Of a DNA stretch of 20,099 nucleotides, positions 4,219 to 20,099 are shown in pieces. Origin of the DNA: a virus. The notes below the pieces were generated by a model. That model was not told where the DNA came from and did no database searches. It worked only from the letters and a program-made list of their open reading frames with translations. Location of the stretch: IMG/VR virus record IMGVR_UViG_3300021085_000290, positions 1 through 20,099 of that record; one strand, written 5' to 3'. Every line of letters begins with the position of its first letter. Within the stretch, counting starts at the first letter, position 1. The position numbers and the translations under genes are program-made.

Positions 4219-5532
4219 ATGGCAGATACATTTTATTTTAGTCGAGATACCAAAGTTCATCTAACAGATGCCTCAGGAGGCGCAGTATATAATATACCTG
4301 TTCTAGATGGATTTAGTTTTTCACAAGCAACAAACACAACAGAGGTGACTCTCAATGAAATGGCTACGACAACTGGAGAAAGTAGAAGGGCTAGACAAAT
4401 GTTTACTGATTCTTATGCGCCAGCAGAATGGTCTTTTTCAACTTACATTAGGCCTTTTAAATCAGGTGGTGATAATACCGGCGGAGAACACAATGGCGCA
4501 TATCATCATATAGTAGAAGAAGCTTTATGGAATGCTTTGGCAGGAAGTGGAGCAGTAGGAGCATCTGGAACAGCTGTAACAGCAGATGGAACAGACTGTA
4601 ATATATCTTTTGAAAATTCAAACAAAGTTGCATTACATACTTTTGATTTACATTTTGAAATGGGGCATGGTAAAGCTACTCCAACAATTTATAAAATAGA
4701 AGAATGTGTTGTAAATGAAGTTTCAATTGATTTTGATATTGATGGAATTGCTACTGCAAACTGGTCAGGTTTTGGAAAAATCATAACCGAAGACTCTATG
4801 CCAACAGCAACAATTACAGAAGGAACAGCAGCAGCAGATACTAATAACTTTATTAGAAATAGATTAACAGACTTAGTTTTAACTAATGATGTTACAACTG
4901 CAGTTGGTGGTAATGGTGGAAGTTCAAGTGCAACTATAACTTTAACAGCAGCTAATGAGTTGATCAAAGTTGGACAAGTAGTTAAAGCAACCGGAGTAAC
5001 AGCAGGTACAACTGTAGCTGCAATATCAGGTACTACTTTAACATTAAGTGGAGCAATGACTGTTGCAAACGGTACAGCATTTACCTTCTCAAACGCAGGC
5101 ATGACTGATACATATACATTAACACTAACGGGCGGAAATGTTACTATTTCAAATAATATGACTTTCTTAACACCGGAAACATTAGGGCTTGTTAATCAGC
5201 CTTTAGGACATGTAACAGGAACAAGAAGTGTTTCAGGTAGCTTTACATGCTACTTAAACACTCCAGCAAGTGGAACTTCAAGTGCAGATTTATTTGAAGA
5301 TATTATTGGAGCTACTTCAGTAACAACAAATTCATTTGACTTAACGTTTACAGTAGGTGGAACAGGTAATACTCCAAGAATGGTTATGAATTTAGATAAT
5401 TGCCATCTTGAAGTACCTACACATTCAATTGAAGATATAGTAAGTTTGGAAACTAATTTCCATGCTTTGCCAACATCAGTAGATGCAAAAGATGAAATAG
5501 ACATAATCTTTGTAGGACCAACAGTAACTTAG
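4219..5532 (+). CDS. Major tail tube protein with inserted beta-rich module
   Basis: This is the repeating subunit of the tail tube. The N-terminus (FYFSRDTKVHL, PVLDGFSFSQATNTTEVTLN, WSFSTYIRPF) and the C-terminal strands (NMTFLTPETLGLVNQPLGHV, SFTCYL, LEVPTHSIEDIVSLETNFHA) form the alternating beta pattern of phage tube proteins of the lambda gpV class. Residues ~224-292 interrupt this with a Gly/Thr/Ala-rich unit (ELIKVGQVVKATGVTAGTTV, ISGTTLTLSGAMTV, GTAFTF) of a kind seen in many phage tail proteins as a surface add-on. At 437 residues it is larger than gpV (246). GGAGA at 4207-4211 gives a good ribosome site 7 nt before the ATG. The gene is bounded by a 68-nt gap upstream and a terminator downstream, fitting high, separate expression. 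Confidence 0.85.
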   Translation: MADTFYFSRDTKVHLTDASGGAVYNIPVLDGFSFSQATNTTEVTLNEMATTTGESRRARQMFTDSYAPAEWSFSTYIRPFKSGGDNTGGEHNGAYHHIVEEALWNALAGSGAVGASGTAVTADGTDCNISFENSNKVALHTFDLHFEMGHGKATPTIYKIEECVVNEVSIDFDIDGIATANWSGFGKIITEDSMPTATITEGTAAADTNNFIRNRLTDLVLTNDVTTAVGGNGGSSSATITLTAANELIKVGQVVKATGVTAGTTVAAISGTTLTLSGAMTVANGTAFTFSNAGMTDTYTLTLTGGNVTISNNMTFLTPETLGLVNQPLGHVTGTRSVSGSFTCYLNTPASGTSSADLFEDIIGATSVTTNSFDLTFTVGGTGNTPRMVMNLDNCHLEVPTHSIEDIVSLETNFHALPTSVDAKDEIDIIFVGPTVT

Positions 5533-5545
5533 TAATTAAATTAAC

Positions 5546-5572
5546 GGGGAGGGGTCATTCCCTCCCTCTTTT
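5546..5572 (+). terminator. Rho-independent terminator after the major tail gene
   Basis: GGGAGGG (5547-5553) pairs with CCCTCCC (5560-5566) around a 6-nt loop, with a possible G-T closing pair 5546/5567, followed by CTTTT (5568-5572). The stem is strong but the T-tract is short, so termination may be partial. It starts 13 nt after the tail gene stop and lies upstream of the chaperone ribosome site AGGA (5575-5578). Confidence 0.75.
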
Positions 5573-5585
5573 ATAGGAAAAAACA

Positions 5586-6020
5586 ATGACAGAACAGAAC
5601 AAAAAACCAAACGTATCACTAGCGAGTTTATTAACTCCAAGTAAAACAGTATCTATGGACTTTCCAGGAATGGAAGGTTTTACAGTAGATCTCTGTTATC
5701 TCGCAAGAGAAGAATTAATTAAATTAAGAAATAAATCTATAACTCAAAAGTTCAATAAAAAAACAAGAGGTTTTGAAGATAGTTTAGATGAAAATAAATT
5801 TTTAGTTGAGTATGTAAAAGCAATAATTAAGGGATGGAAAGGCTTAAAGTATTCTTACTTAGAAGAGCTTCTATTAGTAGATATCAGTAGCTTAGATCCT
5901 GAAGATGAATTAGAGTTTACTCAAGAGAATGCAGAAACATTAATGAAAAATGCAACTGACTTTGACTCATGGGTTAATGAAACAACTGGAGATTTAGAAA
6001 ATTTTACCAAGACCAAGTAG
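5586..6020 (+). CDS. Tail assembly chaperone, gpG-like (zero-frame product)
   Basis: This 144-residue protein occupies the place of lambda G, between the major tail and tape measure genes, and is close to gpG in length. It is acidic at the C-terminus (LDPEDELEFTQENAET) and contains a mixed helix/strand N-terminus (MDFPGMEGFTVDLCYLAREE) typical of this chaperone class, which coats the tape measure protein during tail assembly and is absent from the finished virion. AGGA at 5575-5578 lies 7 nt from the ATG. The last codons contain a slippery A_AAT_TTT at 5999-6005, so a fraction of ribosomes should move to the -1 frame and make the longer GT form; the rest stop at TAG 6018-6020. The sequence itself is poorly conserved in this family, so the call rests on position, size and the frameshift. 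Confidence 0.85.
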   Translation: MTEQNKKPNVSLASLLTPSKTVSMDFPGMEGFTVDLCYLAREELIKLRNKSITQKFNKKTRGFEDSLDENKFLVEYVKAIIKGWKGLKYSYLEELLLVDISSLDPEDELEFTQENAETLMKNATDFDSWVNETTGDLENFTKTK

Positions 6021-6034
6021 AAGTAATACTTGGT
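5999..6034 (+). promoter_or_regulatory. -1 programmed ribosomal frameshift site (slippery heptamer plus hairpin)
   Basis: The heptamer AAATTTT at 5999-6005 reads A_AAT_TTT in the chaperone frame, a canonical X_XXY_YYZ site that re-pairs as AAA TTT after slipping. A 6-nt spacer (6006-6011) leads to a hairpin: ACCAAGTA (6012-6019) pairs perfectly with TACTTGGT (6027-6034) around a 7-nt loop. The zero-frame TAG (6018-6020) is inside the hairpin. The -1 frame is open from the heptamer to 6427. All three parts fit known tail-chaperone frameshift signals. Confidence 0.9.
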
Positions 6035-6427
6035 TTACTAGATAAACAGTACAAGGAAGGACAACTTGATTATGACGCATATATAAATATGTGCGAACAA
6101 TTAAAACAAGAACCTGACTTAGACGATATGCCACCAGCACAGAATGACTATCCTCATGAAGTACAAGTGGCATTTCTTATACATGGACTACTCCCCGATA
6201 GATGGGAAGGTATGAGTGGTTCTTATATGGGAAAAGACATGTCATCCTTAGGAACTCTACTAGATGTATGGGAAGTTGAAGATAAAAAATCCATAATATT
6301 CTTCCTAAAACATATAGAAGGAAGAAATGCTAGGAAAATAAATGCTGACTTAGAAAGAAAAAGATCAGCAGATAAAAATAAAGCAAAAGCTAAGGGCGGA
6401 ATAAATTCTGCAAATATAAAAAGATAA
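6005..6427 (+). CDS. gpT-like extension of the tail chaperone, made only as GT fusion by -1 frameshift
   Basis: After the slip, reading continues YQDQVEVILGLLDKQYKEGQ and runs 140 residues to TAA at 6425-6427. The full GT product would be 280 residues (codons 1-140 in frame 0, then this segment), close to lambda gpGT. In lambda the G part binds the tape measure protein and the T part recruits major tail protein subunits; the same division is inferred here. The C-terminus is helical and Lys/Arg-rich (NARKINADLERKRSADKNK). An ATG at 6089 could be mistaken for a start, but it has no ribosome site and would discard coding sequence that is continuous with the chaperone through the frameshift. The tape measure ATG follows the stop without any gap. 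Confidence 0.85.
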   Translation, partial: YQDQVEVILGLLDKQYKEGQLDYDAYINMCEQLKQEPDLDDMPPAQNDYPHEVQVAFLIHGLLPDRWEGMSGSYMGKDMSSLGTLLDVWEVEDKKSIIFFLKHIEGRNARKINADLERKRSADKNKAKAKGGINSANIKR

Positions 6428-9400
6428 ATGTCAAAGAAAAACGAAGTAAGAATTCCTATTAAAGTTGATGGTAAGGAAATTCTACTAACTAAAAAGCAAA
6501 TAGATAAACTGAATACCTCGTTGGATAAAACAGGTACTTCTGCACACTCAGCCGATCGTAGGCTAAAAGGAGCTGCTCAGACTTCTTCAAGTGGTACAAA
6601 AAACTTTTCGAAAATGGCGCAAGGCATTACAGGGGGACTTGTACCTGCATATGCTACCCTTGCTGCTAATATATTTGCTATTTCAGCTGCTTTTAGATTT
6701 TTACAAAGTGCTGGAGATTTAAGAATACTACAACAAGGGCAGTTAGAGTACGCACAAAGAACAGGTCAATCTTTATCTATACTTACAAGGCAGCTACAAG
6801 CAGCTACAGAAGGACAGCTAGCTTTCGCAGAAGCAGCACAGGCAGTAGCGATTGGTACAGCAGCTGGCTTATCTGCAAAACAAATTAATGAGTTAGGAAA
6901 AGTCGCAAAAAATGCTTCTCTTATGTTGGGAAGAGACCTAACAGATTCATTCAATAGATTGGTAAGAGGTGCTGTAAAAGCGGAACCAGAACTACTAGAT
7001 GAATTAGGTATTATTCTTCGTCTTGATACTGCCGCTGAAAAATATGCATTAACTATAGGTAAAAATGCAAAACAGTTAAACATATTTGAAAAATCCCAAG
7101 CAGTTGTAAATGAAGTTCTAGAACAAGGTAAGGAAAAGTTCGGAGCAGTAGAAACACAAGTTAACCAACTAACAAAACTTGCAAAATCTTTTGATGATTT
7201 AACAAATTCATTAAAAGGATTTTTAGTGCCTGTTGCTGAGTTTAGCGCAAAAGCGCTCAGTCAAAATACTCTAGCTTTAGCTGGAGCAGGAACATTATTA
7301 GGTACTGGAATAGTAAGAGCCATAACACCTTCACCCGCAGGTATAGATTTAGGAGCTGCAGGGGCATCCGCACAAGCAAATCTTCAAGGTATATATTCAG
7401 GAAAAAGAGATTTAGGTAATTTAGATTCAAAAGGCATTAAAGCAATGAAAAGAACTATAAATGATGCTTATGAGAAGAATAGCAGTACTGTTATAAACTT
7501 TGAAAAAATGAGAAGAACAGAAGCTCTAAAAAGTCTACGTATTATAGAGATGACAACTTTAGAAGAACAAAGATCTCGTGCTAGAGGTTTTACGAAATTT
7601 AGATATGATATTTCTTTAACATATTCTCAATATAGACTTGACCATAAGAGAACAATGGCTTTTATAAAAACAACGTCAGTAATGGCAGGAAGAGCACTAC
7701 AAGGTGCGTTAAGATTTGCAGGTTACGCTGGTATACTTATTTCTGTAGTTGGTCTAATAAAACAACTTAGGCATGAGTCAAATGCAACAGAGATGGCAAT
7801 GAAAGAAGCTCAAAAAGAGTTTGGATCTTTATTTTCTAAAAATGCAAAAGAACTCAAAAAAACTATAGAAGGATTAAAAACTTATGATAGTTTATTATCA
7901 AATGCCGTACGTAATGCAAAAGCTTTAAGTAATATTGATTATTCAGCAGCAATGAAAGGATTTGAAGGAGGACTTTCAGGTACTGGGTACATTGATACAC
8001 TTTTTGAAAAAAATCGAGAAGTAAAAGGGATAGAAAAAAAGATGTACGATCTTTTGTATGGCGCAGGACTTGGCGGTGCCTTTGAGGCAACACTAGGTAA
8101 AGGTATTGAACAAAAGGCAGGCCTTTCAGCAGATCAAATTAGAGGGTTTGAAGGCCTAAAAACGATGTTAGAGCAAGAAGAAACTTTACTTTTAAAAGGA
8201 AGCGACGCACATATACAACATACTAAAGGAATAGAAGCACTAACAGAGTTATTAAATAACCCTACAAGTCAGAGCGCATTTGATAGTGCAAAACTTTTTG
8301 TTACAGATATAGCAAAAAACGGTACCGAAGCACAAAAAAGTATGAAAGGCATTGCACAGACTACTCAAATACTGACAAGTGCAGTTAATGACTTTAGTAA
8401 AGCTTTAAACAGTTTTAAAAGTGCTCAAACCCCTTTGACAAGATTAACAACTAATGTTGCCTCAGTTGGTAGTACGATAAGCGGAATAGGAGAAGCTTTC
8501 TCTAAAGGTGATGCACAGTTAGACTTTAAGATAGGCGGATCACTATTTGATAAAGGAAGCTTAAATGCATTTAAAACTATGTTAAGACCTGACGAAGAAG
8601 CACAGTTTTTAGCAGAATATGATGCAACTAATAAAAAATTACAAGAATTAGCAGTACAAAGAGCAACATATCTTGTAGACGGAAAAAAGGAATTTCCTAG
8701 TGGAGAGATGGTTACAAGAAATCGTACAAAAGAAGAATACGAAGCATATAAAGCCTCCCCCGATTTTGTACCCCAACTAATTGACCTTGATAGTCTATAT
8801 ACTGCGGGTTACAACTATGGCACAATAGAAGTAGAGGGAACAGCTACCGGTAAAGATCTTGCAGAAAAACTTCATAAAGAAATGACTGAAACAGGGTCTA
8901 GCGCATATGAATTCCTTGGAGATATACTTGAAACAGAAGCTAGAAGACTACATGGCATAGAAATGGGCATGATAGAGGACAAAACTCTTGCCCAGAAGAA
9001 TTTAACATTACTTTCTGTTGGAGCTACAAAAAATCAAACAAAACAACTAAAAATGCAGGCGGCTATAATAAATAATGACTTAAATATCTCTAATACGCAA
9101 ACTCTAATACAGGAACTTAAAGATAAAGATTTAGAAAAAAATGCAGCACAAATAGCAATGGAAAACGAAAAACTAGAGTTACTCCGAGCACAAGGCTTAC
9201 AACTTCAAGCAAATATAGACCATCAATTCCAACTAGCACAAGCTGCGAAAGATAGTTTTGAGTCTGGATTGCAAGGAACTTTCGATAATCTTATGACAGG
9301 TAAAAACTCTAGTTTAACAGAAGGGTTAGCAAACATAGCGAAAGGAACATTAGAATCTGTATCGAAAAAACTATCAGAGCAAATGGCTACAGGAGTTTCA

Positions 9401-9931
9401 AACTTCTTATTTGGAAATAAAGAATTAGAAGGATATAAGAAAGGGGCGGAGATATTAAAGCAAGGAATTATTGACGGAGCTAGAGCAGCAGTAGGCACTG
9501 GCACTGGAGACATCTCTTCAAGTAGTGTTGAAATGGGCGGCCTTGAAAAAGCCTTTAACATGGGCAAAAAAGCTTTTGCATTTCTTAATCCTTTTTCTGC
9601 CGCAAAAGGCGGTATCAGTCCAGAATATGCAAAAGGCGGAATCACTCCTGTCTACGCTGCTACTGGAGGAGTATTCTCAGGCTCCAAACAAGGATATCCA
9701 GCTATTATGCATGGCAACGAAGCAGTAGTACCATTACCTGACGGAAAATCAATTCCAGTCTCTGGAGGAATGGGCGGAACTGTAAACGTTTCTGTAAATA
9801 TGGCGACAGGAGAAACAAGTTCCACTTCAAACGCAGAAGACATGTACCAGATGGGAACTGCAATAGCTCAAGCAGTAGAGAACGAATTAGAAAAACAACA
9901 GAGACCAGGAGGGATGTTAGCCCCTTATTAA
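6428..9931 (+). CDS. Tape measure protein
   Basis: This 1167-residue, mostly helical protein fixes tail length and is probably delivered into the host envelope with the DNA. After a charged N-terminus, residues ~67-95 are hydrophobic (LVPAYATLAANIFAISAAFR). The region that follows, with FAEAAQAVAIGTAAGLSAKQ, VAKNASLMLGRDLTDSFNRL and RGAVKAEPELLDELGI, is the conserved block of many phage tape measures. A second hydrophobic segment lies at ~431-446 (GYAGILISVVGLIK). Long coiled-coil stretches fill the centre and ~860-960. The C-terminus is Gly-rich (AKGGITPVYAATGGVFSG) and contains HGNEAVVPLPDG, a common tape-measure ending. At roughly 1.5 angstrom per residue the tail would be about 175 nm, longer than lambda's (853-residue gpH). 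No Shine-Dalgarno is visible, so translation is likely coupled to the T frame that ends immediately before it. Confidence 0.92.
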   Translation: MSKKNEVRIPIKVDGKEILLTKKQIDKLNTSLDKTGTSAHSADRRLKGAAQTSSSGTKNFSKMAQGITGGLVPAYATLAANIFAISAAFRFLQSAGDLRILQQGQLEYAQRTGQSLSILTRQLQAATEGQLAFAEAAQAVAIGTAAGLSAKQINELGKVAKNASLMLGRDLTDSFNRLVRGAVKAEPELLDELGIILRLDTAAEKYALTIGKNAKQLNIFEKSQAVVNEVLEQGKEKFGAVETQVNQLTKLAKSFDDLTNSLKGFLVPVAEFSAKALSQNTLALAGAGTLLGTGIVRAITPSPAGIDLGAAGASAQANLQGIYSGKRDLGNLDSKGIKAMKRTINDAYEKNSSTVINFEKMRRTEALKSLRIIEMTTLEEQRSRARGFTKFRYDISLTYSQYRLDHKRTMAFIKTTSVMAGRALQGALRFAGYAGILISVVGLIKQLRHESNATEMAMKEAQKEFGSLFSKNAKELKKTIEGLKTYDSLLSNAVRNAKALSNIDYSAAMKGFEGGLSGTGYIDTLFEKNREVKGIEKKMYDLLYGAGLGGAFEATLGKGIEQKAGLSADQIRGFEGLKTMLEQEETLLLKGSDAHIQHTKGIEALTELLNNPTSQSAFDSAKLFVTDIAKNGTEAQKSMKGIAQTTQILTSAVNDFSKALNSFKSAQTPLTRLTTNVASVGSTISGIGEAFSKGDAQLDFKIGGSLFDKGSLNAFKTMLRPDEEAQFLAEYDATNKKLQELAVQRATYLVDGKKEFPSGEMVTRNRTKEEYEAYKASPDFVPQLIDLDSLYTAGYNYGTIEVEGTATGKDLAEKLHKEMTETGSSAYEFLGDILETEARRLHGIEMGMIEDKTLAQKNLTLLSVGATKNQTKQLKMQAAIINNDLNISNTQTLIQELKDKDLEKNAAQIAMENEKLELLRAQGLQLQANIDHQFQLAQAAKDSFESGLQGTFDNLMTGKNSSLTEGLANIAKGTLESVSKKLSEQMATGVSNFLFGNKELEGYKKGAEILKQGIIDGARAAVGTGTGDISSSSVEMGGLEKAFNMGKKAFAFLNPFSAAKGGISPEYAKGGITPVYAATGGVFSGSKQGYPAIMHGNEAVVPLPDGKSIPVSGGMGGTVNVSVNMATGETSSTSNAEDMYQMGTAIAQAVENELEKQQRPGGMLAPY

Positions 9932-10315: not shown

Positions 10316-11526
10316 GTACAAACAGTTTAATAAATGATTTTCAAAAACAGGCAGTGGCTTCAGGCATTGTAGAGCTGTATGAGATAGAAAAAGCAGATGG
10401 AACATTTGCTTATATAACAAGAGGAGAAGATTCAGATGGAAGTAGTCTACAACTTTATGATTATACTTCTACTAGCACTCTTAGAACTTATGCACCCTAT
10501 CCTGTAGAGAGTTCTGGGTTTGAAATTAAAGTAACAGGAGCAATACCAAGACCTGTTATTAACTTTTCAAATGTAGGTAATAACTTTACTACTTTAATGG
10601 GTACTACAGATACAAACGCATTACTAGGTAAAAAAATTGTACGAAGATTAACATTAAAAAAATATTTAGCAGGAGAATCAGCAGATACTGGATCAGGCAA
10701 TCAATCTATAGAGTTTGATAGACAAGTATGGGTTATCTCTAAACTAATGAAAAAAGATGCAACAGCGTTAAGTTTTGAACTTAAAGCGCCTTTTGATTTA
10801 GAAGGGGTTAAGATACCTGCAAGACAGATAATATCAAACGCTTGCCCTTGGGAGTATACAGGAGCCTCCCCTTCTTTACCTGAAGCAGATAAATGCGGAG
10901 GGTGTACTTGGGATAAGGCAGGTTCTTTTAGAGCAAGATATAATACAAATGATACTAGCCAAAAAGTTTATGTAACACTTGATGATGAGTATATTTATGA
11001 TGGTAGCTTATCTTATACAGACTATACAGCAGCAACTTCAAGTACTGCATTTGCTGTTGATGATTTTATAAAAACAACAGGAGAAGCTGCAACTGAAATA
11101 ACTACAGCAGGAGGCTTCAACGCTATTACAAATTTAACTAGGTACTGGCAAGTACTTACTGCAGGAACAAAAACAGCTTTAGGTACTCCTTCAGAGTCTA
11201 ATAGTAACTTCGCAGTAGTAAGAGTATTTTCTTCTAGTTATAGTGCAAGTACTACATATAAAGCTTACACAGATGATAGACTAAATAGTATAGTTAAATC
11301 TGGAGACTTCTTATGGAAAACAAAGCAGCCCACTGTAGGTAACAGCCCAACATTTAGTGATTATTGGAGAAGAGCAGATGAGTGTGGCAAAAGACTAAAT
11401 TCTTGTAATAAAAGATTTGGGTTTGTACCAAAGACTTCAACAAGTACAACTTCTAGAGGCAGTGCTACTTTTGAGAATAGAGTTCTACCTTTTGGAGGTT
11501 TTCCAGGGTCAAAGAACTTTGAATAA
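10312..11526 (+). CDS. Minor tail protein L homologue with extra domain between its cysteine pairs
   Basis: gpL forms the trimeric ring joining the M ring to the J hub. Residues 1-175 match the family (INDFQKQAVASGIVELYEIE, GAIPRPVINFSNVG, FELKAPFDLEGVKIPARQI), and the C-terminus ends with the characteristic NRVLPFGGFPGS. Lambda gpL binds a [4Fe-4S] cluster through four cysteines. Here the candidates are C178 (NACPWEYTG), C195 and C198 (KCGGC), and C358 and C365 (DECGKRLNSC). In lambda the middle two are a few tens of residues apart; here about 160 residues separate them. The inserted part ends with a Y..W-type segment (TTYKAYTDDRL, FLWKTKQP, SPTFSDYW) resembling small carbohydrate-binding modules in phage tails, which is my inference. 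The start is GTG at 10312, overlapping the M stop by 4 nt. At 404 residues it is much longer than lambda gpL (232). Confidence 0.87.
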   Translation: MSTNSLINDFQKQAVASGIVELYEIEKADGTFAYITRGEDSDGSSLQLYDYTSTSTLRTYAPYPVESSGFEIKVTGAIPRPVINFSNVGNNFTTLMGTTDTNALLGKKIVRRLTLKKYLAGESADTGSGNQSIEFDRQVWVISKLMKKDATALSFELKAPFDLEGVKIPARQIISNACPWEYTGASPSLPEADKCGGCTWDKAGSFRARYNTNDTSQKVYVTLDDEYIYDGSLSYTDYTAATSSTAFAVDDFIKTTGEAATEITTAGGFNAITNLTRYWQVLTAGTKTALGTPSESNSNFAVVRVFSSSYSASTTYKAYTDDRLNSIVKSGDFLWKTKQPTVGNSPTFSDYWRRADECGKRLNSCNKRFGFVPKTSTSTTSRGSATFENRVLPFGGFPGSKNFE

Positions 11527-11842
11527 ATTTATAGAAGAAATCTTTTCTCATGCAGAAAAGGAAGCTCCACGCGAGATGTGCGGCTTAATAATAGAACAGA
11601 ATAATGAAGAAAAATGGATTCCTTGCGAAAACAAATTTTTAGGAGAAAATCAATTTGAAATTGACCCAAAAACTTTCGCAAAGTATCAACTAATTTCGAA
11701 AATAAAATATGTAGTCCATAGTCACTACATGCAAGATTGTCATCCAAGTGAGCATGACAAGAAAAACTGTAAGGTATTAGGTATTCCATACTTAATCGTA
11801 TCTTACCCTGATAGAGGAGTTAATATTTATGACCCACGTTAA
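11519..11842 (+). CDS. Tail assembly protein K homologue, JAMM/JAB metallopeptidase domain only
   Basis: This 107-residue protein shows the full zinc-peptidase JAMM motif: the glutamate in REMCGLI, then HSH followed seven residues later by SEHD (H-x-H-x7-S-x2-D). Lambda gpK carries this domain plus an NlpC/P60 cell-wall hydrolase domain; here the protein stops after the JAMM domain, so the second half is missing or encoded elsewhere. The chosen start is TTG at 11519, with AGGG at 11505-11508 ten nt upstream; it overlaps the end of gene L by 8 nt. An in-frame ATG at 11417 lies deep in L and would add 34 residues of frame-shadow sequence, while the next ATG inside REMCG would destroy the catalytic motif. 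The gene overlaps gene I by 14 nt. Its likely job is proteolytic maturation of a tip component, perhaps the ubiquitin-like part of I. Confidence 0.82.
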   Translation: MNKFIEEIFSHAEKEAPREMCGLIIEQNNEEKWIPCENKFLGENQFEIDPKTFAKYQLISKIKYVVHSHYMQDCHPSEHDKKNCKVLGIPYLIVSYPDRGVNIYDPR

Positions 11843-12650
11843 GTTAATGGGAGAAATGGGAGAAAAGTTCGGAGCGGAATGGAACATGGATGTTTCCAAT
11901 TTTCGTGATGTTTTTCGTCTTATTGATTGCCAAACAAATGGATTTAAACAGTACTTAACAACTTGTGCAGAAGAGGGAATAAACTTTACTATTCAAAACG
12001 GAGAAGACTTAGTAGATGGTACTCTCGATGCAATGATAGCCCCTGTAAAAGATACTGTAGTTATTACTCCAGTTGCTGCAGGTGCCGGAATGAAAGATAT
12101 TTTAAAAGTAGTATTTGGAGTTTTTCTACTGATGTATGGGCCGGGAATGGCAGACGGTTTATTTGGAGGAGCAGAGGCACAGGCTGCAAAAGACCTGGAT
12201 GCAGTCACAAGAGCAACAGGCATGGTAGAAGGAGTAAGAGTAGGAAGCTATGGAACTACACAAGCTCAGGTAGATGCAGCAGCTAAAGTAGAAAGAATAC
12301 AAAAAGCAAAAGCATTTACAACAAAAGCAATACAAGGAGTAGGAACTAATTTAGCACTAAGCGGTGTACAAGGATATTTAACTCCTGATACTCCCTCAAC
12401 TTCAGGGAAAAGTTACTTATTCAATGGCCCAGAAAACAACGTAAAAGAGGGAGTACCAGTGCCTTTACTATACGGACAGCTAATGGTTGGAGGCTCAGTA
12501 ATAAACTTCGGAGTAGAGGAAGAAGCTCTACCACCTTTTGCTTTACAAGGATATACAAGAATAACAGATGGCTCATCTTCATGGACTACAAGCGACGGGA
12601 GTTACGGCGGTGGTAGCGGAAAAGATAGAGGTATAACTCATGCATTTTAG
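11829..12650 (+). CDS. Tail assembly protein I homologue with ubiquitin-like N-terminus
   Basis: gpI is required to complete the lambda tail tip. Residues ~1-82 have the beta-grasp pattern described for this family (MTHVKLMGEMGEKFG, DVSNFRDVFRLIDCQTNGFK, ending in DTVVITPVAAGAG). A hydrophobic stretch follows at ~91-113 (ILKVVFGVFLLMYGPGMADG), then an Ala/Lys-rich linker. The C-terminal segment SYLFNGPENNVKEGVPVPLL, YGQLMVGGSVINFG is the conserved part found in I and J-associated proteins. Its 273 residues compare with 223 in lambda. GAGGAG at 11814-11819 lies 9 nt before the ATG. The 14-nt overlap with K points to coupled production of the JAMM peptidase and its possible substrate; both proteins are made in lambda but are not clearly part of the mature tail. 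Confidence 0.85.
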   Translation: MTHVKLMGEMGEKFGAEWNMDVSNFRDVFRLIDCQTNGFKQYLTTCAEEGINFTIQNGEDLVDGTLDAMIAPVKDTVVITPVAAGAGMKDILKVVFGVFLLMYGPGMADGLFGGAEAQAAKDLDAVTRATGMVEGVRVGSYGTTQAQVDAAAKVERIQKAKAFTTKAIQGVGTNLALSGVQGYLTPDTPSTSGKSYLFNGPENNVKEGVPVPLLYGQLMVGGSVINFGVEEEALPPFALQGYTRITDGSSSWTTSDGSYGGGSGKDRGITHAF

Positions 12651-12659
12651 GAGAAAATA

Positions 12660-15600
12660 ATGGGATATGGAAAAAGATTTGCTGATGAACTAGAAGCAGC
12701 TTCAAATAATAATGTTGGGGGCTCAAATGCAGTAGCAGGAACTTCTAGTACTATAGAAGGCTCAAAAAACATGCCTGAAGAAAATCAAACTGCAGTAATA
12801 TATGACGTTTTGTCTGAAGGCCCGATTGAAGGTTTGGTAGATGGAACAAATTCAATATTTTTAGATAAAACTCCTGTAACTATAGAAGACAAAAAATACC
12901 AACCTATAGTAATTGGGAAAGGTAATTTCACAGCAAGTACACTAACTATAGTAGATTCTACTAGTTCCAATCCTTTTGCTAATCTTTCTACAGAAGATGG
13001 TAAAAGATTTGTAAGAATTGCTAAAGGTAAAAAGTTAATTACAGGTAATGGAACTTCTACAGGAATTTCAGGTACTGAAGGCTCGAATATAATTACTTCA
13101 TCTACTGCTTTTTTCTCTGAAGATGACTTAGCAAGTGTAAATCCTACTTCAGGAACAGATGTTTTTATTGATACAGAGATACCTGATCCTTTTATAAGAA
13201 TAGAAGGAGCGGGGGCTAACTCTTCAGTAGAACTGGTAACTCCTATAGTTAGATTTATTAGTACAACTTCTGTAGAAATTGGACAACCTTTACCTAGAGA
13301 TATTACACATAAAACAGCAGCTATTGATAAGATAGGTACAATTGCTAGTTTTACTAATCCAAATACTGCAGTTATAACACAGTCAACCCCTTTAGGCACT
13401 GCTAAAGTAGATGCTACTAACGTAGAGATTCTTGTAAATACTCCTGCCGCAGTAAATATAGAAGATCCTATATATAATTTCCAAAACTTTTCATACTCAT
13501 TTATGAACGGGCATCCAGATCAGCCGTATTTAAAAGGTTTCAAAGACATAGGTAGCGCTAGTATAATTGAGAATAAAAATGTTGCGATAGAACAAACTCA
13601 AGGACTTCTTTCCAATAACAATAATACAATAACTGGAAAATGGAGTAGTAATACAGCGGCTGCTAGTGCACAAGCTGTAGTTGTTACAGATAATGCAATA
13701 TCAAATCCTAATGAAGTAGACAGCATAAAATTAACCTTTAAGTCTCCTACTATGATAGCGGCTAAATCAAGTAGTGGTGATGAGAAACCAGCAAACTGTG
13801 AACTAAGAATTTTCTTAGGGTATAAGAAAACAGGAGATAATGCATTCACACAAAAACTTATGTTTGGTCCTACTGACGAAGATTTAAGTTCAAGGGAAGA
13901 TAACAAACAGTCAAGACCTTGGGAAAACGCACACAATAGTGGTAGAATTAGAACAGAAACAAGAACACCTTTTGCAGAAAGCTTTACTATTGATTTAACT
14001 CCTTATAAGCCTTTATCAGATTACCAAATAACAATTCAAAGAGTAGACCCAGCTATCGGGAAAAACGGAGATTATAATCATACTGCTACTGTTACTTTAG
14101 ACACTGTTGAACATAGATTTACAGATAAATTATCATACCCTCATGCTGCATACTCGGCAGTACTTTTTGATGCGGAATCATTCTCAAAAATACCTTCTCG
14201 TTCTTATGAACTAAAAGGATTAAAAGTAAAAGTACCTACTAACTATTTTCCAAAAGGCGAAGGCGGAAGAACTCATGGAGAGTATGACAGAAATATAAGT
14301 TCTGGAGTAGACTCTGGAAGTTACCAAAACTGGGATGGAAATTTTAGAGGAGATTTATCTACTTATGCTGAGGGACATGTTAACCATGAACTAGTATGGA
14401 CAGATAATCCTGCTTGGATTTTCTATGACTTAGTAACAAATAAAAGATACGGAATAGGAAAATATATAGAAAACAGTCAAGTAGATAAATTCGAATTATA
14501 TAAGATCGCAAGATACTGTGACGAACTTGTAGCAGATGGAAAAGGTGGACTTGAGCCAAGATTTACTGCAAACGTATACATAAAAGAAGCAGCAGACGCA
14601 CTCAAAGTATTGAAAGATATTTCTCAAGTATTTAGGGGAATGTTATATTGGTTAGATGGTCAAATTCAATTTTCACAAAATAGGTATGAACAACCTATAT
14701 TTACTTTTTCAAAAGCAAACACTATAGGAGGATTTGCTTATACTTCACCTAGAGGACAGTTTAGATCAAATCAGATTAGAGTAACTTGGAATGACCCAGA
14801 CTCTATGTACAAACAAGCAGTAGAAATCGTAGAAGATACTAATAATATATTAGAAACTGGAAAAGTTGTACCTAAAACTATTGTTGCTTTCGGAGCAACT
14901 TCAAGAGGACAAGCACATAGATTTGGTAAGTGGAGTTTATTCACAGAGATACTAGAAGCCGAAGCTGTAGCATTTCAATCTTCTATCAATGCAGGATTCT
15001 TAAAACCTGGCAACGTAGTATTAATTCAAGATGCAGACAAAGATGTAATATCTAATTCCGGTAGATTGTCTTCTTCTAGTTCTGTTACTGGTATAAACCT
15101 AGATAGACCAATAAATCTTTCTAGCGGCAATACTTTTAAATTATCTATTATGTATCCACAAGGTGGAGCATACTTATCTAATACTAGTGCTATAATAAAT
15201 GATAGTACTACAGATGCTTCTGTAACAAATACTTACCAGAGAGGAGACTTAATAACTCATGCAAAAGTAGGGGGAACTGTAGTAGAACTAACAACAGATG
15301 AGCAAACTAATAATGCAGTAGATAGTAGCGGTGATGCTTTAGATTTAGTATGGAATCCTAATTCAAGAATTGAAACTCAAACTATATCTAGTACAGGGTC
15401 GTCAGTAAGTTCAGTAACAGTTAGTAGTGCCTTTACATCAGCTCCTGAGTCAGACTCAATGTGGGCAATCAGAGAGTACGATGCTGCAGGAGCCCTTGTA
15501 AACGGATCAGCACAACAATATGTAATTGTAGATATAAAAGAAGAACCAAATAAATTATATACTATATCCGCAGCTAAGTATGAGCCTTCTAAGTTCGACA

Positions 15601-18600
15601 TGGTTGACAGAGGATATATACTAGACGTAGGTGTAGACACTAATAAATTACCTACCTTTAGAGAAAGCCCACCAGCTCCAGAAACTTTAAGTTTAGAAGT
15701 TGTAAAATCTTTTAATGCAGGATTAAATGATTCTTCGAATATACTAGGTGCTACTAATCAAATAAGAATTAACTGGGGAAGAGTGTTAAATGATGACGGT
15801 ACTGAATACAAACATCTAAGTCATTTTGAAATAAAACATAATATTGATAGTTCTAGAGTTGATAAATTCAAAAAGCTAACAGTAGCAAAAACAGAAAACG
15901 TTTTAAGCGTAGACTTTGATGGGCCAAAAGAAATGATTGTTCAAGTTCAATCAGTTAATATTAATGGCGGAAAGTCTTCTATAGTACAAAGAAAGATTGA
16001 AGTTACAAATAGTCAAGTTAGTAATGGAACTACTGAAATATTTAAAGTACCTAGTGATGGAAAAATAGACAAACATATTCAATGCGGAGGATCTAACGTA
16101 TCTATAGATAGTGTAAACTATCAATTACAAAGCTCAGACGGTACAATATATACTAATCCTAGCAACGGAAACACAGCCTCTTACCAGCAAAGTTTTGTAG
16201 GTATGGCAGCAAATTCAGAAGCATACTTACTATTTGATGCGTCAGAAAGCGCAACTAGTGGAGATGTTTTAAAAGCTGTAGAGAATAAAATAGACTCAAC
16301 AGCACTATTACCTTTAGGAGTAAATAGTAGTAATGCGGCAGTAACTACACCTCTAGCTTTTGAATACTTAGCAGAAGTAGGAGCAGCGAACAATGGTATA
16401 ACAACCGAGACCGGAACTATAAGCGGAACAGTCGGTGATAACATTATTACTGGTTCTTCAACTGATTTTACTACTGAATTTGAAAACGGAGATATTATTG
16501 TAATTGCTCCAGCAGGAACAACACGTTTTTACAGTAAAATAAATTATATTGAAAGCAATACAAAACTACAAATTGCAACTCCTTTACCTAGAACTTACTC
16601 AGGAGTATCTGTAAGTAGCCTATCATTCAAATCAGATCCTATATCAGACGTTATTTTAGCAAAAGTATCTTATGACGGTTCAACTTACACAGTAGAAGAA
16701 AAGTATTCAGAAGGCACTGAAAGTTTAGGGTATTTTCATCATGAAAACACTTCAAATACAAATGCACTAAGTGCTGACGCTTTTAAAACTGAGTTTGGTA
16801 GATTCCCACAAGAAGGAGATATACTTATTGTTGTGAATACAGCTCCCACTCCTAAAGTAAGTAAGTCGTATAAATTCGCAAGTAATGCCTTTAGTGAAAT
16901 AGCTAACTTTATGACTGGAGATTTAGTAGTCGATGGTTCAATTTCTGGTACAAAAATAAATTCTGCTACTAAAGTTACAGCAGGTACTGGAAATAATGTA
17001 GGTGTGTTAGACGGAGCAGACTCTACATTTAGAATATATGCAGGACATGCTACTCCAGCAGATGCTCCTTTCAGAGTAACACAAGGCGGAGCTTTGACAG
17101 CAACAAGTGCTACTATAGAAGGAGCTATAGACGCTACAACTCTTAATGTTATTAATGCAAGTGTAGTAGGTTCTTTAACAGCAAGTGAACTTACAGCAGG
17201 TTCAGTAACAGTACAAAGTTTAAATCAAGCAGTATGGAATGAAATTGATACTAGAGTAGCAGGAACTTCGGCAAATGGTTTTTATGATAGTAAAAATTCA
17301 ACTACAGGATATTTAGGAGTTTCAAAAACTCTATCTTTGACAGGTTCTTCAAGCGCAGGTTATCAACATAATGGTGAAGATTTACACTTACGTTTCCAAC
17401 TAGTAGATTCATTTGGTCCAGCCCCAGCAGGATTTACAGGAAACGGGTTAAAAGTTACAGCACAATTTCAATACAGACTAGCAAGTTCAAGTACTTGGAT
17501 AAATGTAGGGTCTTCTTTGACGGAATCTTTAACTAAAACAGATTATTCTTCAGGTTCATTATATGATATAGACATGGATCACGATGTAGAAATATCTAGT
17601 TCTTTAACTTCTTCTTCTTACTACCATTTCCAAGTAGTTCTTACTCCTACTATAACAAACAATGCCTTTGTAGCATTTATAACTTATGGTCAGGGAGGAG
17701 CAAATGACACAAGCGGATCTCCTTTTGCTTTTGCGGCACAACAAGGAAGTACTTCTGTAGGTTCAGGATCTGGTACAATAACAGGTGTTACTGCTAATGA
17801 TGGTTTAAGTGGGGGCGGTACAACAGGTACTGTTAGTTTAGCAGTTGATAGCACAGTTGTAAGAACAACAGGAACACAAACAATTGCGGGTGCAAAAACT
17901 TTCTCAGATAATATAATATTGTCTGGAAATCTTGATGTACAGGGAACTACTACTACATTAAACGCACAAGACTTAAATGTAACAGATAAAAGTATTGTTT
18001 TAAATTATCATGCAAGTAATGACACTTCTGGAACAGCAAATAATGCAGGTATAATTATTCAAGACGCAGTAAATTCTAGTACTGATGCTACTATTTTATG
18101 GGACGCAACTAACGATAACTTTAACTTTTCACACAAAATAAGATTAGATGACAATATACAAGCACAGTTTGGTAATGGCGCAGATTTACAGATTTATCAT
18201 ACAGGTAGTACATCTTTTATAGCAAATGGTGGAAATGGTAGTTTAAGACTTACTAATGGTACTGGAAATATTGAGTTAAGAGCATCAACTGTAGCATTGC
18301 AAGACAACTCAGCATATAACTATTTAAGAACAGAAGATTTAGGTAATGGTGGTCGTGTAAGAATTTATCATGAAGCTGTTGAGGTTATGAAAACTGAGTC
18401 AACAGGAATAGACATAACAGGAAGAGCAACTGCTGATGGATTGACAAGTGAAGGAACTTTAGGAAATTGGGAAATAAGTAATGGTGGTAACGTACAAACT
18501 TTTTCAAGAGCTGGTGCTAATTATATAAGAGCAAGTGATGCAGCAGGTATTTTAAGATTTGATACAGGTGGCACAACCATTCGTCAAAAAATATCCAACA

Positions 18601-20099
18601 ACGGAGACATCTCCTTCTATGATGATACAGGCACAAATCAAAGTTTCTTCTGGGATGCAAGTGCTGAGTCACTTTGTTTAGGCAATACAAATGCAAGTGC
18701 ATCATTAGATATAAGAAAAGATAGTGGGTTTGCACTTAGAGCAGAAAACGGAAGTGGACATTACTTTAGAGTTGCCGCAGGAGGTAATACTGAAATAGGT
18801 GGTACTTTAGATGTATCAGGAATAGTTACTGCTGATGGATTGACTGTTAATTCAGGAATTACTAACCAAGTTGCAACTTTTTCAAGTACAGATGCAACTG
18901 CATTTATAAAAGTAGCTGATAACAGCACTACAGCTACTACACATGGTTATGGTGCAAATGGTAATGACTTGAGTTTATACGCTAATGATTCTGAGAGAGT
19001 CAGAATATTAAGTACAGGAGATGTAAATTTTAAAACTGGTGGTTTAAAAATAAATGACACAACTGTTATAGATAGTTCAAAAAATCTATTAAACCTTGAA
19101 TCTATAAAATTATCTGATAACAAAGAATTATTATTGGGTACTAGCTCAGATGTAAGATTCTTACATAATGGAACAGACACTCATATTTTAAATAATACTG
19201 GTGATTTATTTATAAGTAACTTTGCAGATGATAAAGACATTGTATTTAGAAGTGATGATGGTAGTGGTGGTGTAGCAGAATATTTTAGGCTAGATGGAGG
19301 TAATGGTTATCTTATAACTAGCAAACATAATCAACATTTAGACAATGTTAAGTCTATGTATGGTGGCTCTAATGATTTACAAATCTACCATGATGGTAGT
19401 CATAGCTTTATTAGAGATGGCGGAACTGGTCATTTAAAAATACAAGCTACAAACCTTAAGTTACAAGATGAAAGTGGCAACAACTATATAGACATGATTG
19501 ATGGTAGTTATGTTCGCCTAATGCATAACGCAAATACCAAGCTAGAAACAACCTTAACAGGCATAGACGTAACAGGAACAGTTACAAGTGATGGTTTGAC
19601 TGTTGATGGTACAGCACAAATAAATGGCACAAGTGCAGGACAATTAACTTTAGATGCTACAGGTCAATATAATCAAATAACTTTTGAGCAAAACAGTGGT
19701 AATAATTCAGGTGGAGATATAGTTTATGACCATACAAATGACCAATTGTGGTTGCGTTCACTTGCTGTAGGTAGCGTACATTTAAAAACAGGTACAACTG
19801 CAGGTAATACAGTAGATAGACTAAAGGTAGCATCTAACGGAGACATCAGCTTCTACGAAGACACTGGAACAACTCAAGGTTTGTTTTGGGATGCTAGTGC
19901 TGAGTCACTTTGTTTAGGCAATACAAATGCAAGTGCATCATTAGATATAAGAAAAGATAGTGGGTTTGCACTTAGGGCAGAAAATAACTTAGGACATTAT
20001 TTCAGAGTTGCCGCAGGAGGTAATACTGAAATAGGTGGTACTTTAGATGTATCAGGAACAATATCTAGTGGAAATGTTACAGCAGGTAGTAGTGGTAAT
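12660..20099 (+). CDS. Tail tip J homologue (host specificity hub) fused to a long repetitive tail fibre; 3' end outside window
   Basis: I read this frame codon by codon from ATG 12660 and found no stop through 20099: 2480 codons and still open. GGAG at 12650-12653 lies 6 nt before the ATG. J hallmarks are VIYDVLSEGPIEGLV (about residues 47-59, L51 at 12810), TDNPAWIFYDLVTNKRYGIG (~581-600), ARYCDELVADGKGGLEPRF (~617-635) and FRGMLYWLDGQI (~658). Residues ~1004-1117 look like a fibronectin type III domain (PPAPETLSLEV to VNINGGKSSI). A small module at ~1253-1319 (GTISGTVGDNIITG...) and a shaft with ISGTKINSATKV at ~1427 follow. From ~1700 the sequence is fibre-like: GVTANDGLSGGGTTGTVSLA, NLDVQGTTTTLNAQDLNVTD, LQIYH, GIDITGRATADGLT. 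The hub would anchor to L and close the tube; the fibre would recognise the receptor. Lambda J has 1132 residues, so this is at least twice as long. Confidence 0.92.
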   Translation, partial: MGYGKRFADELEAASNNNVGGSNAVAGTSSTIEGSKNMPEENQTAVIYDVLSEGPIEGLVDGTNSIFLDKTPVTIEDKKYQPIVIGKGNFTASTLTIVDSTSSNPFANLSTEDGKRFVRIAKGKKLITGNGTSTGISGTEGSNIITSSTAFFSEDDLASVNPTSGTDVFIDTEIPDPFIRIEGAGANSSVELVTPIVRFISTTSVEIGQPLPRDITHKTAAIDKIGTIASFTNPNTAVITQSTPLGTAKVDATNVEILVNTPAAVNIEDPIYNFQNFSYSFMNGHPDQPYLKGFKDIGSASIIENKNVAIEQTQGLLSNNNNTITGKWSSNTAAASAQAVVVTDNAISNPNEVDSIKLTFKSPTMIAAKSSSGDEKPANCELRIFLGYKKTGDNAFTQKLMFGPTDEDLSSREDNKQSRPWENAHNSGRIRTETRTPFAESFTIDLTPYKPLSDYQITIQRVDPAIGKNGDYNHTATVTLDTVEHRFTDKLSYPHAAYSAVLFDAESFSKIPSRSYELKGLKVKVPTNYFPKGEGGRTHGEYDRNISSGVDSGSYQNWDGNFRGDLSTYAEGHVNHELVWTDNPAWIFYDLVTNKRYGIGKYIENSQVDKFELYKIARYCDELVADGKGGLEPRFTANVYIKEAADALKVLKDISQVFRGMLYWLDGQIQFSQNRYEQPIFTFSKANTIGGFAYTSPRGQFRSNQIRVTWNDPDSMYKQAVEIVEDTNNILETGKVVPKTIVAFGATSRGQAHRFGKWSLFTEILEAEAVAFQSSINAGFLKPGNVVLIQDADKDVISNSGRLSSSSSVTGINLDRPINLSSGNTFKLSIMYPQGGAYLSNTSAIINDSTTDASVTNTYQRGDLITHAKVGGTVVELTTDEQTNNAVDSSGDALDLVWNPNSRIETQTISSTGSSVSSVTVSSAFTSAPESDSMWAIREYDAAGALVNGSAQQYVIVDIKEEPNKLYTISAAKYEPSKFDMVDRGYILDVGVDTNKLPTFRESPPAPETLSLEVVKSFNAGLNDSSNILGATNQIRINWGRVLNDDGTEYKHLSHFEIKHNIDSSRVDKFKKLTVAKTENVLSVDFDGPKEMIVQVQSVNINGGKSSIVQRKIEVTNSQVSNGTTEIFKVPSDGKIDKHIQCGGSNVSIDSVNYQLQSSDGTIYTNPSNGNTASYQQSFVGMAANSEAYLLFDASESATSGDVLKAVENKIDSTALLPLGVNSSNAAVTTPLAFEYLAEVGAANNGITTETGTISGTVGDNIITGSSTDFTTEFENGDIIVIAPAGTTRFYSKINYIESNTKLQIATPLPRTYSGVSVSSLSFKSDPISDVILAKVSYDGSTYTVEEKYSEGTESLGYFHHENTSNTNALSADAFKTEFGRFPQEGDILIVVNTAPTPKVSKSYKFASNAFSEIANFMTGDLVVDGSISGTKINSATKVTAGTGNNVGVLDGADSTFRIYAGHATPADAPFRVTQGGALTATSATIEGAIDATTLNVINASVVGSLTASELTAGSVTVQSLNQAVWNEIDTRVAGTSANGFYDSKNSTTGYLGVSKTLSLTGSSSAGYQHNGEDLHLRFQLVDSFGPAPAGFTGNGLKVTAQFQYRLASSSTWINVGSSLTESLTKTDYSSGSLYDIDMDHDVEISSSLTSSSYYHFQVVLTPTITNNAFVAFITYGQGGANDTSGSPFAFAAQQGSTSVGSGSGTITGVTANDGLSGGGTTGTVSLAVDSTVVRTTGTQTIAGAKTFSDNIILSGNLDVQGTTTTLNAQDLNVTDKSIVLNYHASNDTSGTANNAGIIIQDAVNSSTDATILWDATNDNFNFSHKIRLDDNIQAQFGNGADLQIYHTGSTSFIANGGNGSLRLTNGTGNIELRASTVALQDNSAYNYLRTEDLGNGGRVRIYHEAVEVMKTESTGIDITGRATADGLTSEGTLGNWEISNGGNVQTFSRAGANYIRASDAAGILRFDTGGTTIRQKISNNGDISFYDDTGTNQSFFWDASAESLCLGNTNASASLDIRKDSGFALRAENGSGHYFRVAAGGNTEIGGTLDVSGIVTADGLTVNSGITNQVATFSSTDATAFIKVADNSTTATTHGYGANGNDLSLYANDSERVRILSTGDVNFKTGGLKINDTTVIDSSKNLLNLESIKLSDNKELLLGTSSDVRFLHNGTDTHILNNTGDLFISNFADDKDIVFRSDDGSGGVAEYFRLDGGNGYLITSKHNQHLDNVKSMYGGSNDLQIYHDGSHSFIRDGGTGHLKIQATNLKLQDESGNNYIDMIDGSYVRLMHNANTKLETTLTGIDVTGTVTSDGLTVDGTAQINGTSAGQLTLDATGQYNQITFEQNSGNNSGGDIVYDHTNDQLWLRSLAVGSVHLKTGTTAGNTVDRLKVASNGDISFYEDTGTTQGLFWDASAESLCLGNTNASASLDIRKDSGFALRAENNLGHYFRVAAGGNTEIGGTLDVSGTISSGNVTAGSSGN
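18582..18822 (+). repeat. Fibre repeat, copy 1
   Basis: This is the first copy of an ~80-codon block (NGDISFYDDTGTN, then WDASAESLCLGNTNASASL, DIRKDSGFALRAEN, HYFRVAAGGNTEIGGTLDVS). It matches copy 2 at an offset of 1236 bases (412 codons). Bases 18660-18739 (80) and 18768-18822 (55) are identical to copy 2, including third codon positions, which points to recent duplication or gene conversion. Confidence 0.9.
19818..20058 (+). repeat. Fibre repeat, copy 2
   Basis: This is the second copy of the same block, with NGDISFYEDTGTT in place of NGDISFYDDTGTN, and ENNLGHYF in place of ENGSGHYF. Identity drops outside the block at both ends. The preceding segment also has a related partner: LQIYHDG at 19377 corresponds to LQIYHTG at 18186, offset 1191 bases, so the duplicated unit is about 400 codons with a shift of 15 codons inside it. 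Confidence 0.9.

Follow-up and report, generated by a model that had tools for sequence, protein, structure and literature searches.

The window analysed here, that is, the whole stretch of DNA under study, is a virus record of 20,099 bases in which a pair of tail assembly chaperone ORFs is flanked by the genes of the major tail and tape measure proteins, with PHROG 3575, 313/3914 and 3779 in this order (Table 1). The families of the two products, G and T, were assigned by sequence profiles, and Pfam contained no model for the G half or the T half. The best isolate matches of the capsid, chaperone and tape measure proteins of the window were T5-like (Demerecviridae) phages, with identities of 31–40%; therefore, it belongs to a distant marine relative of T5 and not of lambda. 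The source is a marine siphovirus, as yet uncultured, with kinship to T5. The initial annotation had compared the heptamer with the G_GGA_AAG of lambda, from which it differs; the relatives are T5-like phages. No tRNA genes were found in the window. The alignment of the close family gave no match in bacterial genomes, and the wider alignment gave five, located in metagenome-assembled genomes without a secure host, which are probably phage contigs. Farther downstream, a JAB-domain protein (Prok-JAB, E=8.6e-11) is encoded at 11417–11842, between an L-like minor tail gene and the ORF at 11829–12650, and its listed TTG start falls within the upstream gene. The ORF at 12660–20099 is open-ended, running off the window after at least 2480 residues, and its 3′ part has a repeated segment (...FFWDASAESLCLGNTNASASLDIRKDSGFALRAEN...).

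Table 1. Features of the tail assembly chaperone locus and its neighbours (positions in the window).
Feature	Coordinates	Strand	Evidence
Major tail protein, upstream neighbour	4219..5532	+	PHROG 3575 E=3.3e-49
G-like tail assembly chaperone, zero-frame product, 144 aa	5586..6020	+	PHROG 313 'Tail assembly chaperone' E=3.8e-12; T5-like homologues E ~1e-21
Slippery heptamer A_AAT_TTT	5999..6005	+	Sequence; AAATTTT in 146/152 distinct junctions
T-like −1 frame, C-terminal 140 residues of GT	6005..6427	+	PHROG 3914 'tail assembly chaperone' E=3e-14; purifying selection
Spacer	6006..6011	+	6 nt to perfect stem, 4 nt to extended stem
Hairpin 5′ arm ACCAAGTA	6012..6019 (extended to 6010)	+	Fold; compensatory pairs
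Zero-frame stop TAG within hairpin	6018..6020	+	Sequence; same position in 150/152 junctions
Hairpin 3′ arm TACTTGGT, proximal register	6027..6034 (extended to 6036)	+	Fold; compensatory pairs
ATG, gene-caller start for separate T gene	6089..6091	+	Not conserved, 10/147 homologues
Tape measure protein, downstream neighbour	6428..9931	+	PHROG 3779 E=6.3e-44; T5-like tape measure homologues

Read from the ATG at 5586, the last zero-frame codons of G are GAA AAT TTT ACC AAG ACC AAG TAG, and the AAATTTT is therefore in the A_AAT_TTT register. The two arms of the hairpin form 8 perfect pairs around a 7-nt loop, and the pairs A6010-U6036 and G6011-U6035 lengthen the stem to 10. Its predicted folding energy was −11.7 kcal/mol (z = −4.6), a value equalled by none of 200 shuffled sequences; Rfam gave nothing above the gathering threshold on 5400–6600. 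The −1 frame is open from 5981, overlaps the zero frame by 37 nt and ends with a stop at 6427. The GT fusion has 280 residues (140 + 140), the first 140 of them common to G, and 28 of its codons are located in 6005–6088. Its junction (...DLENFYQDQVEV...), spanned only after a shift, reads ...DLENF|YQDQV... at the protein level. The codon 3′ of the slip TTT is ACC, and not the CGN of UUU_CGN +1 sites. The initial annotation had placed heptamer, 6-nt spacer, 8-bp hairpin with the zero-frame stop and open −1 frame where we located them by reading and folding the sequence. It had further proposed a 280-residue fusion of G and T tail chaperones, of which both halves match the corresponding PHROGs, and the loss of 28 codons by a gene caller; these codons are present, and those in 6038–6088 are under selection in the −1 frame.

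Since the heptamer by itself occurs often in AT-rich sequence, relatives were collected for comparison. The frequency of the heptamer alone was rejected as evidence, given that AAATTTT is no commoner than by chance in the AT-rich window (9 occurrences against 15.7 expected, 4 of them in the A_AAT_TTT register). Relatives were gathered from IMG/VR, bacterial genomes and named phages, and both halves were found by profile searches. Of the 331 loci containing both halves, 291 have T in the −1 frame and 40 have it in the +1 frame; in none does it share the frame of G. The −1 loci, from IMG/VR relatives, collapse to 152 distinct junctions, in which the heptamer is AAATTTT (146), TAATTTT (4), GAATTTT (1) or GCATTTT (1), and the Phe codon TTT is invariant. 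The zero-frame stop lies 12 nt 3′ of the heptamer in 150 of them. The codons for E-N-F are nearly frozen at synonymous sites (GAA in 141/143, AAT in 146/146 and TTT in 147/147), against a background elsewhere in G in which TTC, AAC and GAG make up 20–25% (TTT:TTC 745:182, AAT:AAC 626:207 and GAA:GAG 1534:477). In the six distinct junctions with a weaker heptamer (T_AAT_TTT, G_AAT_TTT and G_CAT_TTT) only the A-site tRNA could fully re-pair, so full tandem slippage would not be strictly required. U_UU.U is retained in all six, and so is a stem of 10 bp (−10.8 to −15.4 kcal/mol). It must be noted that the sole G_CAT_TTT junction belongs to locus L061, whose P-site codon cannot re-pair, yet its hairpin and −1 frame are intact. 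Two divergent −1 members, L304 and L306, represent a third type, with A_AAA_AAC at the junction and without the Phe slip codon. Synonymous-site invariance was also observed at least 130 nt upstream of the slip site, in a second block of G at 5856–5870 (TAC-YTA-GAA-GAG-CTT, with GAA in 144/144, GAG in 145/145 and CTT in 122/124) and near the 5′ end of the gene at 5625–5636 (Ser AGT in 140/142 and Thr ACT in 138/145), where an RNA element is possible.

With respect to the hairpin, 145 of the 152 junctions have a stem with 6 or more contiguous pairs in either of two registers, compared with 0.76% of shuffled downstream sequences, and the other seven have stems elsewhere (−10.4 to −19.3 kcal/mol). 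The 5′ arm (CAAGTA), which bears the stop, is fixed, and its 3′ partner is either proximal, with a 7-nt loop, or distal, with a 14-nt loop. Of 84 junctions in the proximal register, 45 have C-G at positions +7 and +27 from the heptamer, 33 have G-C and 6 have T-A, and none is mismatched; these compensatory changes alter amino acids. Pairs +11/+32 and +14/+29 of the distal register likewise vary on both sides. Among 90%-identity representatives, paired cells amounted to 93% (proximal) and 99% (distal), against 19–43% when one arm was slid, and none of 500 shuffles reached the observed pairing. By this covariation, the hairpin is under selection. The alignment of homologues that the initial annotation had proposed thus gave conservation of both heptamer and stem in about 290 related loci, with compensatory stem changes. 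Among the −1 rows, the register shifts about seven times on a tree of 90 proteins, an approximate count, since the tree search was a rapid one and the junction columns were part of the alignment. Five loci were scored for both registers. L095 strongly prefers the proximal stem, and the other four (L128, L136, L145 and L165) can form both, at −9.4 and −9.6 kcal/mol; in the folding model, the latter are candidate bistable intermediates, whose stems of equal energy would allow the partner to be changed without losing the stimulator. Hairpins have many possible roles, and this one might instead be a terminator or a site for an RNase or a protein, its distance from the heptamer being incidental. 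However, it lies inside a conserved reading frame without a U-tract after it, Rfam has no match above threshold, and the spacing from the heptamer is fixed in nearly all homologues even as the 3′ arm moves. We therefore regard such a role as very improbable, and the hairpin as the putative stimulator of a −1 shift.

A second alternative is that G ends at 6020 and T is started independently, for instance at the ATG at 6089, perhaps by translational coupling. Two genes are what a gene caller would draw, and T5-like records indeed give T as a gene of its own, with a start that differs from record to record. The region between the hairpin and this ATG (6038–6088) argues otherwise. In close pairs its pN/pS was 0.12 in the −1 frame vs. 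1.07 and 1.72 in the others, and stops were absent from the −1 frame in all 147 sequences but present in 138 and 146 in the other two. Purifying selection in the −1 frame thus acts on the codons 5′ of the ATG. Moreover, Tyr (Y1), the first residue past the slip and read only after a shift, is invariant (147/147), and in the column of the ATG at 6089 only 10 of the 147 homologues have ATG, the downstream ORF having no conserved start. Given this selected frame, the invariant Tyr and the unconserved ATG, separate initiation of T is extremely unlikely, and it would also leave the heptamer and the covarying stem unexplained. Transcriptional slippage on AAAATTTT, giving mRNAs of altered frame, has a practically negligible probability, since, despite the short A and T runs at the site, stretches of four bases are short for slippage by a polymerase, and such a process would work without the A_AAT_TTT register and without a covarying hairpin kept at constant spacing.

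Heptamer conservation, frame and hairpin, taken together, exceed chance. Almost certainly, the tail assembly chaperone gene of this T5-related siphovirus carries a −1 programmed ribosomal frameshift signal, and −1 programmed frameshifting is well supported by sequence comparison. Most ribosomes would end at the TAG, yielding the 144-residue G. Some, with tRNA-Asn on AAU and tRNA-Phe on UUU, would pause at the hairpin 4–6 nt downstream, and both tRNAs would then slip in tandem one base back (AAU to AAA and UUU to UUU), so that translation would continue in the −1 frame to the GT fusion. By analogy with lambda, for which the separate tasks of G and GT have been described (PMC5009743), coating of the tape measure protein may fall to G, and recruitment of the tail tube protein to the T part. 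In systematic tests in E. coli, H_HH.U_UU.Y heptamers, the class to which A_AAU_UUU belongs, were among the most efficient (PMC4066793). In the same host U_UU.U alone suffices when combined with a strong structure (PMC4066793), which would explain the T_AAT_TTT, G_AAT_TTT and G_CAT_TTT junctions.

The T5-like phages have neither the A_AAU_UUU heptamer nor the −1 frame, and their T half is in the +1 frame. The initial annotation had considered that homologues lacking heptamer and hairpin would speak against the frameshift; they exist in this group, but they do not refute the −1 reading, because their T frame is +1 and UUU_CGN is found at the same codon. TTT_CGN was present at the Phe codon homologous to the slip codon of the window in 45 of 45 loci, that is, the 40 above plus five more named phages. 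These loci comprise 32 distinct junctions, with CGT in 23, CGA in 6 and CGC in 3. In Brizo the junction reads ...QIENF|ETERR..., vs. ...DLENF|YQDQV... in the window. In most loci of the group the +1 frame opens just 6 nt before TTC, and the shift is therefore pinned to the Phe codon. Slippage by −2 was set aside, since the −2 codons (ACT and CTT) at GAACTTTCG and ACTTTTCG mismatch tRNA-Phe, whereas a change from UUU to UUC matches. L269 is identical to AY543070 (T5), a record that lists the members of the pair, T5.143 and T5.142, as two hypothetical proteins. A single branch divides the +1 from the −1 group (SH-aLRT 99, 90-protein tree). As a +1 motif, UUU_CGN is established for influenza PA-X (PMC3498833) and plant amalgaviruses (PMC5052127), and has been suggested for the tail chaperones of HF1-like haloviruses (PMC7230728). 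The paper on the Sugarland genome states that there is no predicted frameshift signal, as in T5 (PMC6256483), and our literature search, which covered few subscription journals, gave no report of a UUU_CGN frameshift for T5-like phages. The comparison points to an overlooked +1 programmed frameshift in their chaperone pairs, at loci L269 and L340 (phage T5), L084–L088, L249–L297, L332 and L334–L339. In conclusion, it is highly probable that one and the same Phe UUU slips −1 in the marine clade, with A_AAU_UUU and a hairpin, and +1 in the kin of T5, where UUU_CGN had been overlooked, and that the 3′ partner of the hairpin was swapped repeatedly through bistable intermediates.

Most long-tailed phages are known to have a tail-chaperone frameshift, and the presence of such an element in the window was therefore to be expected. 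The lambda G-GT frameshift and its relatives were reportedly described by Xu, Hendrix and Duda in 2004. The window resembles this system in the placing of the pair between the tail tube and tape measure genes, in the −1 direction and in having a short G and a longer GT, but differs in its heptamer (A_AAU_UUU vs. G_GGA_AAG) and in its T5-like chaperone proteins. Furthermore, its strongly selected hairpin differs from certain tailed-phage cases that seemingly have no stimulatory signals (PMC5009743). The IS3-family and other −1 elements (PMC4066793) share with the window the heptamer, the short spacer and the downstream structure, although the IS3-family ones are transposase genes with mainly A_AA.A_AA.G-type heptamers. 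The T5-like pair (T5.143/T5.142 in T5) is homologous in both G and T and changes frame at the same Phe codon, but T is in +1 instead of −1, the site is UUU_CGN and the pair is annotated as two genes. The UUU_CGN sites of influenza PA-X, amalgaviruses and the HF1 group have their motif in common with the T5 group, and in HF1-like haloviruses it is also located at the tail chaperone pair, whereas the window itself would use −1. The tail-chaperone −1 frameshift is thus of a known kind, and what is new is the heptamer, the selected hairpin with changing partners and the opposite direction predicted in the T5 relatives. In T5, a model phage with no annotated frameshift product, such a product is predicted from a gene pair recorded as two distinct hypothetical proteins. 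In addition, the hundreds of homologues form a new natural series, with a constant slip codon but differing directions and hairpin partners, allowing one to test how a recoding signal alters its geometry, and even its direction, without loss of function.
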